NCBI GenBank assembly: GCA_017519965.1 | Contig: JAFWRK010000015.1 | Coordinates: 1-8,333 of the forward strand | DNA length: 8,333 bases | Direction of reading: 5' to 3' | Origin: Bacilli bacterium | Lineage (GTDB): Bacteria > Bacillota_I > Bacilli_A > RF39 > UBA660 | Part shown: piece by piece, positions 2,293 through 8,173 of the stretch | Layout of the letters: each line of letters begins with the position of its first letter | How positions within the stretch are numbered: the first letter of the stretch is position 1 | The notes under the pieces: generated by a model | The model's input: the letters and a program-made list of their open reading frames with translations, nothing else | What the model was told of the DNA's origin: nothing | The model's database searches: none | Program-made: the position numbers and the translations under genes

Positions 2293-3144
2293 TTATTTTT
2301 CATTATTTCCTTTAATTAGACTATATATTTCATTGTATAACTTCTTATTTACTTCTGCTAAGTCATCATCTTTAGATACTTTAAATGGTTTACCTATTCT
2401 TATTACTAAGTTCTTACTTCTAAATTTGTAATCACCTGATATACCGAATGGTAATAGATAAGAATCTGTTTTTTGAGCCATAGATACTGCTCCAAATTTA
2501 AATGGTAGTAGGAAATGATCATCATAATCTTTTTGTTTTATCTTTTTACTCTTTACTAATTCTTGTAGATAATCATCTACTCTATTTATATTTTCTTTAA
2601 TATCTTTTTTCTTTATTATTTTTTTATCTAATAATTCTTCTAAATAGTTAACTTGTGATGTTCTTATCTTTTTAGCTTTTTTATAGAAGTCTTCAAATGA
2701 TATTTCATTACTATCTACATATTTATCATATACTTCTTTTGCTTTTGCTTCTTTTAATCCATTTCTTGTTCCTTCTGGGAATAGACCTAAAGCATGTCCA
2801 TCATTTAATACATCTAGAGCTGCTCCTTTTGCTGCATCATCATGTATTTGTCTATCTACTGGAATACATCCTGCACTTCTAAAGAACCATCCAAATTTAC
2901 CTTCTTTATATTGTGGATCAAAGTATTCTTTTTTTGCCATATAATGAATTGGTCTTTTTGTAGATATAATTACATTACATTGATCCATTATATGGATATG
3001 ATTTCCTACTACTAACATTGAACCATCTTTAGGTATATTTTCTTTTCCAATTATTTTTGGATTGTAATACCATTTATATATAGGTCCTAGTATTGTTCTA
3101 AATATTCTAAAAATATAAATCTTATCTTTCTTATTTGTTCGCAT
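2293..3144 (-). CDS. PlsC-type lysophospholipid acyltransferase with triplicated helical insert
   Basis: Putative 1-acyl-glycerol-3-phosphate acyltransferase, acting at the inner membrane face to make phosphatidic acid. Numbering from ATG 3144 (283 aa), the PlsC blocks are NHIHIMD (His-x4-Asp, 48-54), GCIPVDR (92-98), FPEGTRN (122-128) and LLPFGISG (230-237). A basic amphipathic N terminus could bind membrane. Between FPEGTRN and LPFKFGAV lie about 80 Lys/Glu/Asp-rich residues absent from the neighbouring paralogue. They form three similar helical hairpins beginning VYDKYVDSNEIS, VNYLEELLDKKIIK and VDDYLQELVKSKKIK. I prefer ATG 3144 because GGGAG (3157-3153) sits 8 nt upstream. The ATG at 3159 would give 288 aa but has no ribosome binding site. 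The gene overlaps the preceding acyltransferase by 14 bp, so the two are co-transcribed. Glycolipid or lysophospholipid acceptors are also possible. Confidence 0.9.
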   Translation of the reverse strand: MRTNKKDKIYIFRIFRTILGPIYKWYYNPKIIGKENIPKDGSMLVVGNHIHIMDQCNVIISTKRPIHYMAKKEYFDPQYKEGKFGWFFRSAGCIPVDRQIHDDAAKGAALDVLNDGHALGLFPEGTRNGLKEAKAKEVYDKYVDSNEISFEDFYKKAKKIRTSQVNYLEELLDKKIIKKKDIKENINRVDDYLQELVKSKKIKQKDYDDHFLLPFKFGAVSMAQKTDSYLLPFGISGDYKFRSKNLVIRIGKPFKVSKDDDLAEVNKKLYNEIYSLIKGNNEK

Positions 3145-3727
3145 TCTTTTCACTCCCATTTTTAATTAAGTTATTGCTTACTACTTTCATTAGTTTTTCA
3201 TTATCTTTATCTAAGTTTCCTGTTAACTTTATTGGTTTTAAGAATTCTACTCTAATACCTTTTCTAAATAATCTATATTTTCCAGTGATTGTAAATGGTA
3301 CTAGTGTTGCATTAGCTTCATTACTCATTTTAACTGCTCCTATTTTAAAAGGCATTATTACATCATCTGTTCTATTAATTGTTCCTTCAGGGAATATTCC
3401 TATACAAAGTCCTTTATTTAAGGCAGATATTGCACTATGTAGGGCATCTTTATCATGTATTTTTCTATTTACTGGAATAGAGCCCATACCTTTAGTAATA
3501 ATACTTACAGGTCCACTAAATAATTCTATTTTAGCTAAGAAATGGACTTGTCTACCTTTAACTACTGAACATAACATTGGTGGATCTGACCATCTAGTAT
3601 GATTACCTGCTAATACTACTGGACCTTTCTTTGGTATATTTTCTCTGCCTACTATTGTAGGTCGATATAGTATAAAAATTAAGATATTTAATAATGGTTT
3701 TACTATTCTATAAAACATTGTGTCCAT
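3131..3727 (-). CDS. plsC: PlsC-type 1-acyl-sn-glycerol-3-phosphate acyltransferase
   Basis: Likely transfers an acyl chain to lysophosphatidic acid in phospholipid synthesis at the cytoplasmic membrane face. Numbering from ATG 3727 (198 aa), there is a hydrophobic N-terminal helix (about 9-24, IVKPLLNILIFILY), NHTRWSD (catalytic His-x4-Asp, 42-48), GSIPVNR (82-88), FPEGTIN (112-118) and TLVPFTITG (141-149). Length is normal for a compact PlsC. Block III has Ile where most members have Arg (FPEGTR), which may alter phosphate binding. An upstream in-frame ATG at 3745 lies inside the -10 box of the promoter and has no ribosome binding site. ATG 3727 has AGGTGAT (3737-3731), so I chose it. The gene is first in a two-gene operon with a second, longer acyltransferase, suggesting different acceptors or membrane roles. 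Confidence 0.92.
   Translation of the reverse strand: MDTMFYRIVKPLLNILIFILYRPTIVGRENIPKKGPVVLAGNHTRWSDPPMLCSVVKGRQVHFLAKIELFSGPVSIITKGMGSIPVNRKIHDKDALHSAISALNKGLCIGIFPEGTINRTDDVIMPFKIGAVKMSNEANATLVPFTITGKYRLFRKGIRVEFLKPIKLTGNLDKDNEKLMKVVSNNLIKNGSEKNANK
3153..3157 (-). promoter_or_regulatory. Ribosome binding site that sets the start of the second acyltransferase
   Basis: GGGAG lies 8 nt before the ATG at 3144, within the 3' end of the upstream acyltransferase gene. The in-frame ATG at 3159 has only TTAATTAAAA before it, so 3144 is favoured. Confidence 0.65.
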
Positions 3728-3743
3728 CTTATCACCTAAATTC

Positions 3744-3772
3744 ATTATATATAAAATACTATTTTAAGTCAA
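3744..3772 (-). promoter_or_regulatory. Near-consensus promoter of the acyltransferase operon
   Basis: TTGACT (3772-3767), a 17-bp spacer and TATAAT (3749-3744) match the housekeeping sigma consensus at 11 of 12 positions. The expected start is near A3737, which is the first base of AGGTGATAAG-ATG, giving a leader of about 10 nt. The -35 box overlaps the T-run of the upstream prs terminator. Confidence 0.85.
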
Positions 3773-3803
3773 AAAAAAGAATTATATTAATGATAATTCT
3801 TTT
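3771..3803 (-). terminator. Intrinsic terminator of the PRPP synthetase gene
   Basis: An 11-bp perfect stem (AAAAGAATTAT, 3803-3793, with 3785-3775) and a 7-nt loop, followed by an eight-T run on the minus strand. The TAA stop of the gene (3784-3782) lies inside the second arm, so the stem encodes the last codons (Lys, Glu, Leu, Ser, Leu, Ile region). Confidence 0.9.
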
Positions 3804-4861
3804 GTTTTTTCTTTTTTCTTATTTATTAATTCTAATATTTCTTTTTTACCATTTTTTAATGGCTTTATTGATTTATGCTCATGAATAGTTTTTATTATAT
3901 TACTTAGCTTATCAGAACAATCTACTACCTTAAACCATTCTCTTTCTTTATACTCTTCAGGTATATAAGTTAAATTTGTTGTATATACTTTATCAAATAT
4001 TTCTGCTTTTTTGGCTATATCAAATTTATTAATACCTTCTGTAAATAGTGAGAATGTAGATACTAGTATAACTTCATTTGCTCCTTGCTCTTTTAACATT
4101 CTCCCTACATCTAGCATTGAACCTCCACTAGCTATCATGTCATCTACAACTATTATGTTTTTACCATTTACTGGAGGACCCATATATACATGTTCAATAA
4201 TTGGGTTTTTACCATTTACTACTCGTGATGTATCTCTTCTTTTAGAAAATATTCCAGTTTCTACTTCTAATATATCAGTAAAATTTTTAGTTCTATCTAT
4301 TGCTCCTTGATCAGGACTAATTACTAATAAATCATCTATATTTTCATTTTTTATTATTTCTTTTAATATTTCATTAGTTGGAAAGAAATTTTCAAATTGA
4401 AGTGTTGGTATAGCATTACAAACATCTGGATCATGACAATCAATTGTTATTATTCTATCTACTCCTAGGTTTTCTAATTCTCTTAGTGCTAAGGCACAGT
4501 CTAGGCTCTCTTTAGGTTTCTTTCTATGTTGACGGGACTCATATAACATTGGCATTACAACTGTTAGTTCTCTAGCTTGTCCTGACATAGAAGCTATTAC
4601 TCTTTTGATATCTTGAAAATGATCATCTGGACTCATTCTTTGATTTTTACCATGCATTTTATAAGTAATACCATAGTTGCCTACATCAGATATTATATAA
4701 ACATCTTTTTCTCTTATTGTTGAATCAATATTTGCTTTTCCTTCTCCATTGCTAAATCTAATTGTTTTAAAATCAACTTTGCATTCTTCCCCTAGGTTAT
4801 CGATAATTTTATCTCCTACTTCTTTAAAATTATCCATGATTATCAACTTTAAATCATCCAT
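3782..4861 (-). CDS. prs: Divergent ribose-phosphate pyrophosphokinase (PRPP synthetase)
   Basis: Makes 5-phosphoribosyl-1-pyrophosphate from ribose 5-phosphate and ATP, the cytosolic precursor for purines, pyrimidines, NAD, His and Trp. Landmarks: RFSNGEGKANI (35-45, matching FxxGE), SRQHRKKPKE (109-118, for the ATP-loop YARQDRK), DCHDPDV (141-147, for DLHxxQ), SPDQGAIDR (182-190, for SPDxGGVxR), SKRRD (206-210) and the PRPP/ribose-phosphate loop VVDDMIASGGSM (238-249). It is 359 aa against about 315 for classical Prs. The extra length is a 14-residue-scale insert near 62-80 (YGITYKMHGKNQRMSPDDH) and a Lys-rich tail after about 328. This matches the divergent longer Prs form of some Clostridia and Mollicutes relatives. 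GAGGAG at 4873-4868, 6 nt before ATG, supports the start. It lies 31 bp after yitT, with a terminator-like hairpin between. Confidence 0.92.
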   Translation of the reverse strand: MDDLKLIIMDNFKEVGDKIIDNLGEECKVDFKTIRFSNGEGKANIDSTIREKDVYIISDVGNYGITYKMHGKNQRMSPDDHFQDIKRVIASMSGQARELTVVMPMLYESRQHRKKPKESLDCALALRELENLGVDRIITIDCHDPDVCNAIPTLQFENFFPTNEILKEIIKNENIDDLLVISPDQGAIDRTKNFTDILEVETGIFSKRRDTSRVVNGKNPIIEHVYMGPPVNGKNIIVVDDMIASGGSMLDVGRMLKEQGANEVILVSTFSLFTEGINKFDIAKKAEIFDKVYTTNLTYIPEEYKEREWFKVVDCSDKLSNIIKTIHEHKSIKPLKNGKKEILELINKKKEKTKELSLI

Positions 4862-5856: not shown

Positions 5857-5880
5857 AAAAAGAGTTATTAAATAACTCTT
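5857..5880 (-). terminator. Intrinsic terminator of the BspA-like gene
   Basis: Arms AAGAGTTA (5880-5873) and TAACTCTT (5867-5860), an 8-bp stem with a 5-nt loop, or up to 10 paired bases, followed by TTTTTGTG. The stem starts within the TAA stop codon (5881-5879). Confidence 0.85.
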
Positions 5881-8173
5881 ATACGTACCATGATGGGAGT
5901 GTTGTTGTGTAATTTGTCCAAAACATTGCATTATATACTAGATTAGCATTTAATTTAGAGCTCCAATCATCTAAAGCAGAGGCATCTGTTAGATTAGTAC
6001 ATCCATTAAACATATATGTCATATCTGTTACACTTGCAACATTCCAAACTCTTAAAGAGCTTATAGATGATAAATTGGGACAATCTTTAAACATGCTTGA
6101 CATGTTTGTTACACTACTTACGTCCCAATTATATAATTCGTTATTTAGAGATGAAATAGCAGTTTCACTAAATAAACATTTCATATCTTTTACTTTACTC
6201 ACATTCCATTGTGATAATGCACCTAAATTACTTAAACTTGTACATTCTGAAAACATATATCTCATCCATTCAACATTACTTATATTCCATTGTGATAGGG
6301 CCGAAATGTTTGTCAAGCTAGTACAGCCTTCAAACATATATTGCATGTTTGTTACATTACTTACATTCCAATTAGCTAGTGCTGTTATATTAGTTAAGTT
6401 GGTACAGTTTTCAAACGCTCCTCCAGTGCTGGTTACTTTGCTCATATTAATACTATTTAATCCATTTAGTGATGTCAAACTAATACAACCTTGAAATATG
6501 CCTGAGATTTCTTCTAAGTTGGTAGTACTCCAATTTGATAAAAAAGATAAGTTTGAAATGCTACTGCAGTTTGTAAACATGTCATTCATATTTTTAACAT
6601 TGCTTACATTCCAATTTGATATTGCTGTTAAATCTGTTAGGCTTTTACAGTTAGCAAAAGTCCAATTCATTCTTGTAACCTTATCTGTGTTCCAGCTACT
6701 TAATCCTGTTAGTGTTTGAAGACTTTCACAGTATTCAAAATTATCATCTAACATTGTTAAACTGCTTGTTGTCCAATTTGATAATGGTGTTAGATTTTGT
6801 AAACTTAGACAATAATAAAAAGTTCTTCTCATTTCCGTTACTTTGCTTACGTCCCAATTTGATATTGCAGATAGGTTTGTTAATCTTGTACATCCATAAA
6901 AAATAACTATCATTTCAGTTAAATTACTTGTATTCCAATTACCTAGACCATTTAAATTTGTAAGATTTTCGCATCCCCAGAATACTCCACTCAAACTTGT
7001 AACATTACTTACATTCCAATTTGATAATGCAGTTATATCTGTTAATCCTGTACAGTTTTCAAAAAGTGAATAAATTTCTGTTACATTAATAGTATTCCAA
7101 TTACCTAGACCATTTAAATTAGTAAGATTTTCACATCCCCTGAATACTGCACTCAAACTTGTAACATTACTTGTATTCCAATTGGATAGGCCGGATAAGT
7201 CTGTTAATCCTGTACAATTAAAGAAGAAATAATCCATTGATTCTACATTACTTACATCCCAGTTGGATAGGCCAGATAGGTTTGTTAGATTGCTACATTT
7301 ATTAAATGTATTCATCATTTGACTTGTAGTACTTGTATCTAAATTTTCTCCATTAAAATCACTTAAATTATAAAGATACGTGTATGCATTACTCATGTTA
7401 TTATTTGCTAATACTTTTGATCTATTTTGACCTATAACTAATTCATATAATCCATCATTATCGTTGTCAAAATACCATGCTATTACTGTTCCATTTTGTC
7501 TTTCTGAAACATCCCATGATCCAATTGCATTGTTTGGTACTGTGTTTGTATTTGTATATGTTATTGATTCTATTGTATTATTTAAAATAGGACCATTTAA
7601 ATACTTATAGGTTGATGTTGATGTAGTTCTATCATAATTATAATCATACTCAGTATAGTCATTTAACATAATCATATCTTCTATAAAATCATTAAATGTA
7701 AACTGTATATTGACTGAATTAATTATATTACTTGCTTGAGTTATATTATCTTTATATTTTAATTTTATTCTAAATGTTATTTGTTGATTAGGAGAAATTT
7801 TAGTATTTAGTATATTATCTAACACTTCAACTGTGGCATCAGTATTTATTGTATTCCATATACTTGTGATTGTTTTATTTGTACTTCCAAAGTTTTTTAC
7901 TGTTGCTAATAATGTGACTGATGAGTCTAGACTTGGAAGTGTTATAGCATTTGAAAATCTATCATAATTAAAGTTTAAGTCATAATATAAACTTGCATTA
8001 TTTGTTGCTTCTGAAAAAGTTAAATTAGTAATTCTTACATCTTCATATTTTCTATAAGCTAAATCTCCTGATACTGATAGTGTTTTTGATAAGGAAGAAT
8101 ATCCTATGGATATTAATCCACACAAAAGAAACATTAATATAAATATAAAGTTGTTAATGATTCTTTTGTTCAT
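5879..8173 (-). CDS. BspA-like leucine-rich-repeat (DUF285) surface or secreted protein
   Basis: A 764-aa exported protein. Residues 1-26 are a signal peptide or signal anchor (basic start, FIFILMFLLCGLISIG). Residues about 28-165 form a beta-rich domain (LSVSGDLAYR, TVKNFGSTNKTITSI, KISPNQQITFRIKLKY) resembling the N-terminal Ig-like or TasA-like sandwich domains of other low-GC surface proteins. Residues 218-285 hold the BspA pre-repeat segment (GSWDVSERQNGTVIAWY, ELVIGQN) with a possible calcium loop DNDNDG (236-241). Residues 286-744 are 17 tandem 27-residue repeats (consensus MxxMFxxCxxLTxLxxLSNW then NxSNVTx), and 745-764 a broken last copy. There is no lipobox, LPxTG or C-terminal membrane helix, so the protein is released or held by its N terminus. 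Relatives bind host proteins, bacteria or matrix; the target here is unknown. AGGAG at 8185-8181 supports the start. It is transcribed alone. Confidence 0.93.
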   Translation of the reverse strand: MNKRIINNFIFILMFLLCGLISIGYSSLSKTLSVSGDLAYRKYEDVRITNLTFSEATNNASLYYDLNFNYDRFSNAITLPSLDSSVTLLATVKNFGSTNKTITSIWNTINTDATVEVLDNILNTKISPNQQITFRIKLKYKDNITQASNIINSVNIQFTFNDFIEDMIMLNDYTEYDYNYDRTTSTSTYKYLNGPILNNTIESITYTNTNTVPNNAIGSWDVSERQNGTVIAWYFDNDNDGLYELVIGQNRSKVLANNNMSNAYTYLYNLSDFNGENLDTSTTSQMMNTFNKCSNLTNLSGLSNWDVSNVESMDYFFFNCTGLTDLSGLSNWNTSNVTSLSAVFRGCENLTNLNGLGNWNTINVTEIYSLFENCTGLTDITALSNWNVSNVTSLSGVFWGCENLTNLNGLGNWNTSNLTEMIVIFYGCTRLTNLSAISNWDVSKVTEMRRTFYYCLSLQNLTPLSNWTTSSLTMLDDNFEYCESLQTLTGLSSWNTDKVTRMNWTFANCKSLTDLTAISNWNVSNVKNMNDMFTNCSSISNLSFLSNWSTTNLEEISGIFQGCISLTSLNGLNSINMSKVTSTGGAFENCTNLTNITALANWNVSNVTNMQYMFEGCTSLTNISALSQWNISNVEWMRYMFSECTSLSNLGALSQWNVSKVKDMKCLFSETAISSLNNELYNWDVSSVTNMSSMFKDCPNLSSISSLRVWNVASVTDMTYMFNGCTNLTDASALDDWSSKLNANLVYNAMFWTNYTTTLPSWYV
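5942..7318 (-). repeat. Seventeen tandem 81-bp units encoding 27-aa BspA/DUF285 repeats
   Basis: The coding region for residues 286-744 divides into 17 units of exactly 27 codons with no insertion or deletion. Within a unit, Phe is at position 5, Cys at position 8 (16 of 17), Leu or Ile at 11, Trp at 20 (16 of 17) and Val or Leu usually at 25. The exceptions are unit 15 (no Cys8, Cys at 3 instead) and unit 11 (Ile for Trp20). A degenerate 20-residue copy ends the protein. Confidence 0.92.
6932..7172 (-). repeat. Recent 162-bp (two-unit) duplication inside the BspA repeats
   Basis: The 79 bases at 6932-7010 and at 7094-7172 differ at only four positions and are offset by exactly 162 bp, two repeat units. 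In protein terms, units 4-5 copy units 2-3: GCENLTNLNGLGNWNT occurs at both sites. Other units are much more diverged, so this copy is young. Confidence 0.85.

Follow-up and report, generated by a model that had tools for sequence, protein, structure and literature searches.

A conserved, SHOCT-like repeat insert within a PlsC-family acyltransferase of uncultured Bacilli

The second of two neighboring PlsC-type acyltransferases encoded in an 8,333-nucleotide stretch of Bacilli DNA (the window) carries 84 residues inserted directly after one of the conserved motifs of the family. This insert is a conserved, lineage-restricted stretch, within which a unit of about 25 residues is duplicated. Judged by profile comparison, the two copies are SHOCT-like, and formal membership of the SHOCT family is not supported. 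We are highly confident of the sequence anatomy, which is as follows:

2293..3159, minus strand: PlsC2, a 288-residue PF01553 acyltransferase with the insert
2509..2760, minus strand: the insert, residues 134-217 (84 residues), flanked by motif III FPEGTRN and by LPFKFGA
2662..2748, minus strand: unit 1, residues 138-166, weak, with register kept, not significant alone
2584..2658, minus strand: unit 2, residues 168-192, SHOCT-like
2509..2583, minus strand: unit 3, residues 193-217, SHOCT-like, repeating unit 2 at 25 residues
2761..2781, minus strand: motif III FPEGTRN, residues 127-133, bearing an arginine with a proposed role in binding the acceptor phosphate
2983..3000, minus strand: motif I HX4D, residues 54-59, catalytic
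3131..3745, minus strand: PlsC1, a 204-residue upstream paralogue without the insert, in which EGTI replaces EGTR

The insert and its internal repeat

The genes of PlsC1 and PlsC2 overlap by 29 bases, and both proteins belong to PF01553. PlsC2 matched this family with 68.2 bits (E 8e-19, gathering cut-off 23), and the match bridged the insert, with residues 35-241 aligned to positions 3-132 of the 132 in the profile. This places PlsC2 in the LPA acyltransferase family, with a putative activity. LPFKFGA (residues 218-224) directly follows the insert. At the same site PlsC1 has six residues (RTDDVI) rather than 84, a difference of 78, which is the figure given in the first-pass annotation of this DNA; the span that it assigned to the insert, 2497..2747, was also close to the 2509-2760 measured. 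HX4D and EGTR were both found in the window PlsC2 and in all 79 PlsC2 sequences longer than 150 residues from loci L001-L080 (the one remaining sequence was too short and was left out), and PlsC2 retains its catalytic motifs despite the insert. The block flanking the insert had been described as facing ATP or an acyl carrier; instead, the proposed role of the EGTR arginine (R159) is to bind the lysophosphatidic acid phosphate, according to an excerpt of PMC6688108, citing Robertson 2017.

The core of PlsC2 was aligned to the PlsC of T. maritima (PF01553, PDB 5KYM), with which it shares motifs I (HX4D), II, and III (FPEGTR), as well as the motif IV proline. The first aligned piece ran to chain residue 160, immediately beyond FPEGTR; a second piece, which was weak (7.0 bits), began at residue 165. 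Thus, where PlsC2 has 84 residues, the loop in 5KYM is of about 4 residues (S160 to 165 unaligned), subject to the weakness of the second flank. The two proteins also differ at the N-terminus: residue 6 of PlsC2 aligned to residue 35 of 5KYM, so PlsC2 has about 29 fewer residues there.

A profile built from 153 aligned insert carriers (the best 120 of 5099 homologues, and 33 loci) was compared with itself, and the scores were compared with those of 2000 column shuffles. The top score, 34.3, was at offset 25 (residues 171-192 against 196-217) and was reached in none of the 2000 shuffles, for which the maximum was 19.0. HHalign gave a probability of 97 for unit 2 against unit 3 over 22 residues. 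Units 2 and 3 are a duplication, and the alternative that the insert lacks an internal repeat signal can be set aside. The second-best offset, 29 (unit 1 to unit 2), scored 11.2 and was reached by 93 of the 2000 shuffles, while offset 54, the sum of 25 and 29 (unit 1 to unit 3), ranked fifth with 8.0 and was reached by 796. When unit 1 was compared with units 2 and 3 averaged, 167 of the 2000 shuffles reached its score, and HHalign gave 3.3 and 2.7 for this unit. In other words, the offsets of unit 1 agree in register with units 2 and 3, and on their own are not significant. Of the three related units described in the first-pass annotation, two were therefore recovered, and the first did not stand as a statistically independent third; triplication including unit 1 is plausible.

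We infer a helical fold for the insert. Helical periodicity was not convincing: the hydrophobic moments of hand-drawn segments were 0.24-0.38 at 100 degrees, with best angles of 75-140. The net charge of the insert was +3 in the window, with a mean of -2.7 over the 153 carriers (range -10 to +12).

Two other genes on the minus strand of the window were examined. The first (1555-2226) encodes a 223-residue protein that was unmatched in Pfam at E ≤ 1 and whose one NCBIfam match, to a model for alpha/beta hydrolases, was weak (E 0.005). The second (5879-8173) encodes a 764-residue protein, probably a surface protein, in which six stretches matched DUF285 (E 5e-100). In the related locus L001 (1369-3840), an Asp/Glu racemase-family gene lies between PlsC1 and the counterpart of the window's PRPP synthetase gene, which was matched by place and size; this racemase-family gene is not present in the window (3131-4861).

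Likeness to the SHOCT domain

The units were scored against 17 SHOCT rows, 15 of them distinct because of an overlap between two loci, all taken from genomes of the same order. Unit 2 scored 21.9 and unit 3 scored 19.9, neither reached in 2000 shuffles, and the whole insert scored 21.9, reached by 1 of 2000. Unit 1 showed no likeness (8.1, reached by 678 of 2000). HHalign probabilities to SHOCT were 91 for unit 2 and 90 for unit 3. Units 2 and 3 were also modelled together, and the model was used to rank 807 scored non-PlsC open reading frames, among which 15 of the 17 SHOCT rows were scored; these were found at ranks 1, 3, 5, 6, 11, 17, 24, 26, 38, 39, 51, 57, 58, 83, and 89, and other proteins occupied ranks 2, 4, and 7-10. 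The resemblance to SHOCT noted in the first-pass annotation is thus upheld for units 2 and 3, and neither unit 1 nor membership of the family is borne out. The profile search suggested there, of the insert alone against Pfam SHOCT (cut-off 27 bits), gave no match for the window insert at E ≤ 10.

It is possible, though doubtful, that the units are true SHOCT domains recruited into PlsC, so that the likeness is one of homology and not of convergence. Units 2 and 3 share the spacing and profile of SHOCT (PF09851), with a common internal pattern, read by eye, of L-x2-L-x5-I-[ST]-x2-E-F; HHalign probabilities are near 90, SHOCT proteins are enriched in the ranking, and 12 of 60 genomes from the order contained a SHOCT match above the cut-off. 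However, SHOCT matched only 9 of 43 insert relatives at E up to 10, compared with 14 of 43 for CARD and likewise 14 of 43 for HTH_69, and its best E value, 0.0022, was weaker than that of CARD, 0.00061. In the published description, in the portion consulted, the glycine and the glutamate of SHOCT are strongly conserved and 89.2% of the domains are C-terminal (PMC3581485). The insert, in contrast, is repeated, internal (residues 134-217 of 288), and without the conserved glycine (Gly in 7 of 153 carriers at residue 180 and 4 of 153 at residue 205), though the acidic residue is retained (E or D at residue 186 in 152 of 153 carriers). The likeness may be real and yet a product of convergence.

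Other families were considered as well. No convincing match was found in the PDB (best E 0.02 for the insert profile) or in Pfam, NCBIfam, or PHROG (best E 0.00017, 0.00036, and 0.0003, each in 1-2 of 43 members). A literature search on SHOCT or an insertion together with acyltransferase or PlsC, which left most subscription journals outside, found no paper on the subject. Among the matches listed, none on PlsC insertions and structure concerned such an insert by title.

Distribution and history of the insert

All of the best 120 of 5099 homologues contained the insert, which was 81-85 residues long in 119 of them and 52 in the remaining protein, P0077. The 29 residues absent from P0077 amount to about one unit and stretch between the EEF of unit 1 and that of unit 2, a pattern that unequal exchange between units would produce; it could also be an assembly error. 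Among the best 80 of 178 relative loci, 33 encoded an insert of 79-86 residues and 47 had 6-7 residues at the site; L055 and L059 were both without it.

The insert was found in at least 15 of 241 genomes of a single order, that of L001. In this sample, where the first pass scored up to 22 candidates per genome and may have missed some, the insert profile matched 16 genomes: 15 with PlsC proteins (among them G006, identified through L030) and 1 with a weak match outside PlsC (L093), which was read as chance. A class-wide sample of 395 genomes, with up to 13 candidates per genome scored in the first pass and misses likewise possible, gave 9 matches, 4 strong and 5 weak. All four strong matches fell in genomes that the sample of the L001 order already contained, and the newly drawn genomes gave no convincing match among the candidates scored. 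The weak matches (L116-L120) were also read as chance; PlsC motifs were absent by eye from the four inspected, and the L120 match did not recur among the open reading frames called. When the most divergent insert was used to search regions, the single protein recovered among 65 candidates was 100% identical to the query and therefore uninformative. The first-pass annotation had considered such a repeat inside a catalytic domain unusual; its absence from 5KYM, and the lack of a convincing match among the candidates scored in the newly drawn class-wide genomes, agree with this. Within the 13-22 candidates at most that were scored per genome, the insert was not a common feature of ordinary PlsC proteins.

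A tree was inferred from the core of the protein, with the insert columns removed, for 73 rows: 37 with the insert, 28 without it, and 8 paralogues. Carrier rows were thinned at 72% identity and all other rows at 80%, and P0077 and short rows were left out. Seven changes of insert state were needed on this tree, at least three of which were forced by starred branches; a quick tree gave eight changes, and a single change was sufficient in 0% of 200 bootstrap trees. Because the inserts are recognisably homologous, an old gain followed by repeated loss is the simplest history, and horizontal transfer could also have contributed. Two loci in this tree (L033 and L043) were labelled Mycoplasmatota. 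In two of the 15 genomes with an insert-bearing PlsC (L091:3292-4752 and L092:2260-3732), this protein is extended by about 200 residues at its N-terminus and is encoded downstream of a ligase gene; the extension in L091 matched HAD-type Pfam models, only below their cut-offs.

This history bears on the possibility that the insert is a near-neutral decoration, an old insertion tolerated at the surface and repeatedly lost, which we consider rather unlikely. The seven changes of state, the missing unit of P0077, and the lower identity of the insert are all in its favor: over 3000 random pairs from 151 carriers, mean pairwise identity was 0.50 in the insert, compared with 0.72 and 0.64 in the two parts of the core, and alignment gaps within the insert were mainly at residues 151-153. 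However, seven residues of the insert were near-invariant in the 153 carriers (K136, F158, S168, Y172, L176, I182, and Y212); these and the identity of about 0.50 show purifying selection.

Phospholipid synthesis and possible roles of the insert

The pathway surrounding PlsC2 was examined in 33 related genomes, 23 with the insert and 10 without. These are metagenome-assembled genomes of 0.8-2.0 Mb, with completeness not given; they exclude the genome of the window itself and include G001, whose PlsC2 is 95% identical to that of the window. PlsX, PlsY, and DegV/FakB were each found in 0 of the 33, and PlsY in 0 of the 241 genomes of the order sample, while CdsA was found in 32 of the 33 and a FabF-type ketosynthase in 2 (G008 and G011). 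The same searches in 14 named genomes, used as positive controls, detected PlsX in 8, PlsY in 8, ketosynthase in 14, PP-binding in 11, CdsA in 13, and DegV in 6. A homologue of long-chain fatty-acid ligase was present in all 33 genomes at E ≤ 1e-20 and adjoined PlsC genes in many of them. In G006 (C14:50266-53189), a 460-residue PlsC-like frame adjoins a 779-residue ligase frame.

A gap of 1640-1752 bases separated PlsC1 and PlsC2 in 33 of 45 insert-less loci, compared with 2 of 32 insert loci, with the genes adjacent in the other 30 (3 of the 80 loci, L001-L080, had no PlsC1 and were not counted). The gap genes scanned, in L031, L034, and L036, encoded AMP-forming ligases of the long-chain fatty-acid type. 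Because these pass none of the listed NCBIfam cut-offs, that their acceptor is CoA rather than ACP can only be inferred. The idea that the insert replaces the ligase of the operon was rejected, as more divergent carriers have a ligase beside PlsC2; the adjacency in insert loci probably reflects shared ancestry within the clade of the window. The arginine of motif III was missing from PlsC1 in 76 of 76 loci (replaced mostly by I, and also by F, T, or H), which suggests a changed acceptor site.

Coupling of a PlsC-type acyltransferase to an AMP-forming acyl ligase is also seen in acyl-ACP--phospholipid acyltransferase fusions of the Aas/PRK08633 type (NF006386), a model that PlsC and the ligase each match in part; here they are separate genes, with two copies of PlsC, and PlsC2 scored 63.7 bits against the model's cut-off of 1221. 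The mycobacterial PlsM/PlsB2 route is a precedent in which bacteria use other acyltransferases to make phosphatidic acid; its enzymes differ and, in the available portion of the source, no insert is mentioned (PMC10593935). In the genomes studied here, PlsC2 most probably takes its acyl groups from acyl-CoA that is made with scavenged fatty acid. Among the families searched, PlsC1 and PlsC2 together are the best candidate seen for supplying CdsA with phosphatidic acid. We have moderate confidence in a pathway fed by acyl-CoA.

For order RF39, a mechanism 'recently described in Firmicutes' was suggested in the portion consulted of Nayfach et al. 2019 (PMC6784871). That the 33 genomes belong to RF39 is our guess. 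The work cited there as reference 31, Cronan 2014, reportedly describes the fatty acid kinase route. Because FakB, PlsX, and PlsY were found in none of the 33 genomes and the ligase homologue in all of them, the data point to a different route. Among the matches listed for RF39 and phospholipid, none was on an acyl-CoA-fed PlsC pathway by title.

Our proposal is that the ligase would make acyl-CoA from scavenged fatty acids, that PlsC2 would use it, and that PlsC1 and PlsC2 together would supply phosphatidic acid to CdsA. The insert would form a small bundle of helices bordering the acceptor site, where it might dock a protein partner (PlsC1, the ligase, or a second PlsC2) or act as a lid, and in this way might tune turnover or hand-over. 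Catalysis itself would not need the insert, because close relatives are without it. As a whole, the reading of the insert as an accessory module, for docking or as a lid, on an acyltransferase fed by acyl-CoA seems to us evenly balanced between right and wrong, and the docking or lid role taken separately is tentative; the 'docking or regulatory device' of the first-pass annotation is likewise conjecture. The features behind this role are the conserved hydrophobic residues of the repeat, the slight acidity, the neighborhood of the acceptor site, and the absence from close relatives. Against it are the weak helical periodicity, the lower conservation of the insert relative to the core, and a published oligomerisation test in which one SHOCT domain gave a negative result (PMC3581485). 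The repeated absence of the insert could mean that it has little function. A more specific and speculative version, which we think unlikely, is a route to phosphatidic acid fed by acyl-CoA (ligase, PlsC1 with EGT[I/F], and PlsC2 with EGTR), operating without PlsX, PlsY, FakB, and mostly without ACP, in which the SHOCT-like repeat holds the assembly together or hands over lysophosphatidate.

It is unlikely, too, that the insert is a membrane-surface anchor replacing the larger N-terminal two-helix motif of the T. maritima enzyme. The shorter N-terminus of PlsC2 would fit such a role, but insert-less orthologues and the window PlsC1 have similarly short N-termini, and the insert is slightly acidic on average with modest hydrophobic moments.

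Least probable by far is a dock for acyl carrier protein that brings acyl-ACP to the active site, because 26 of the 33 genomes had no PP-binding match and FabF was found in just 2. Two of the seven matches lay inside open reading frames of more than 1000 residues (the only one in G001 was inside a 1231-residue frame), leaving five stand-alone candidates of carrier size, of which two were in the 23 insert genomes (G008 and, weakly, G019). In G008 (C42) and G011 (C14), the carrier gene was immediately beside a further PlsC, on a contig also holding FabF, but this PlsC was a copy without the insert. Other PlsC enzymes use acyl-ACP, and the insert is beside the active site with a charge of +3 in the window; however, with a mean of -2.7 over all carriers there is no consistent basic face. 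Compared with a catalytic element, a carrier dock, or an anchor to anionic membranes, a helical bundle serving as a contact surface or lid would be the better fit to the features of the insert.

It is unusual for a housekeeping enzyme of lipid synthesis to have a conserved repeat module adjoining its substrate site. The patchy presence of the module among close relatives gives natural pairs, with and without the insert, in which its role could be tested, and the genome context opens to testing how phospholipids are built in uncultured Bacilli without fatty acid synthesis.
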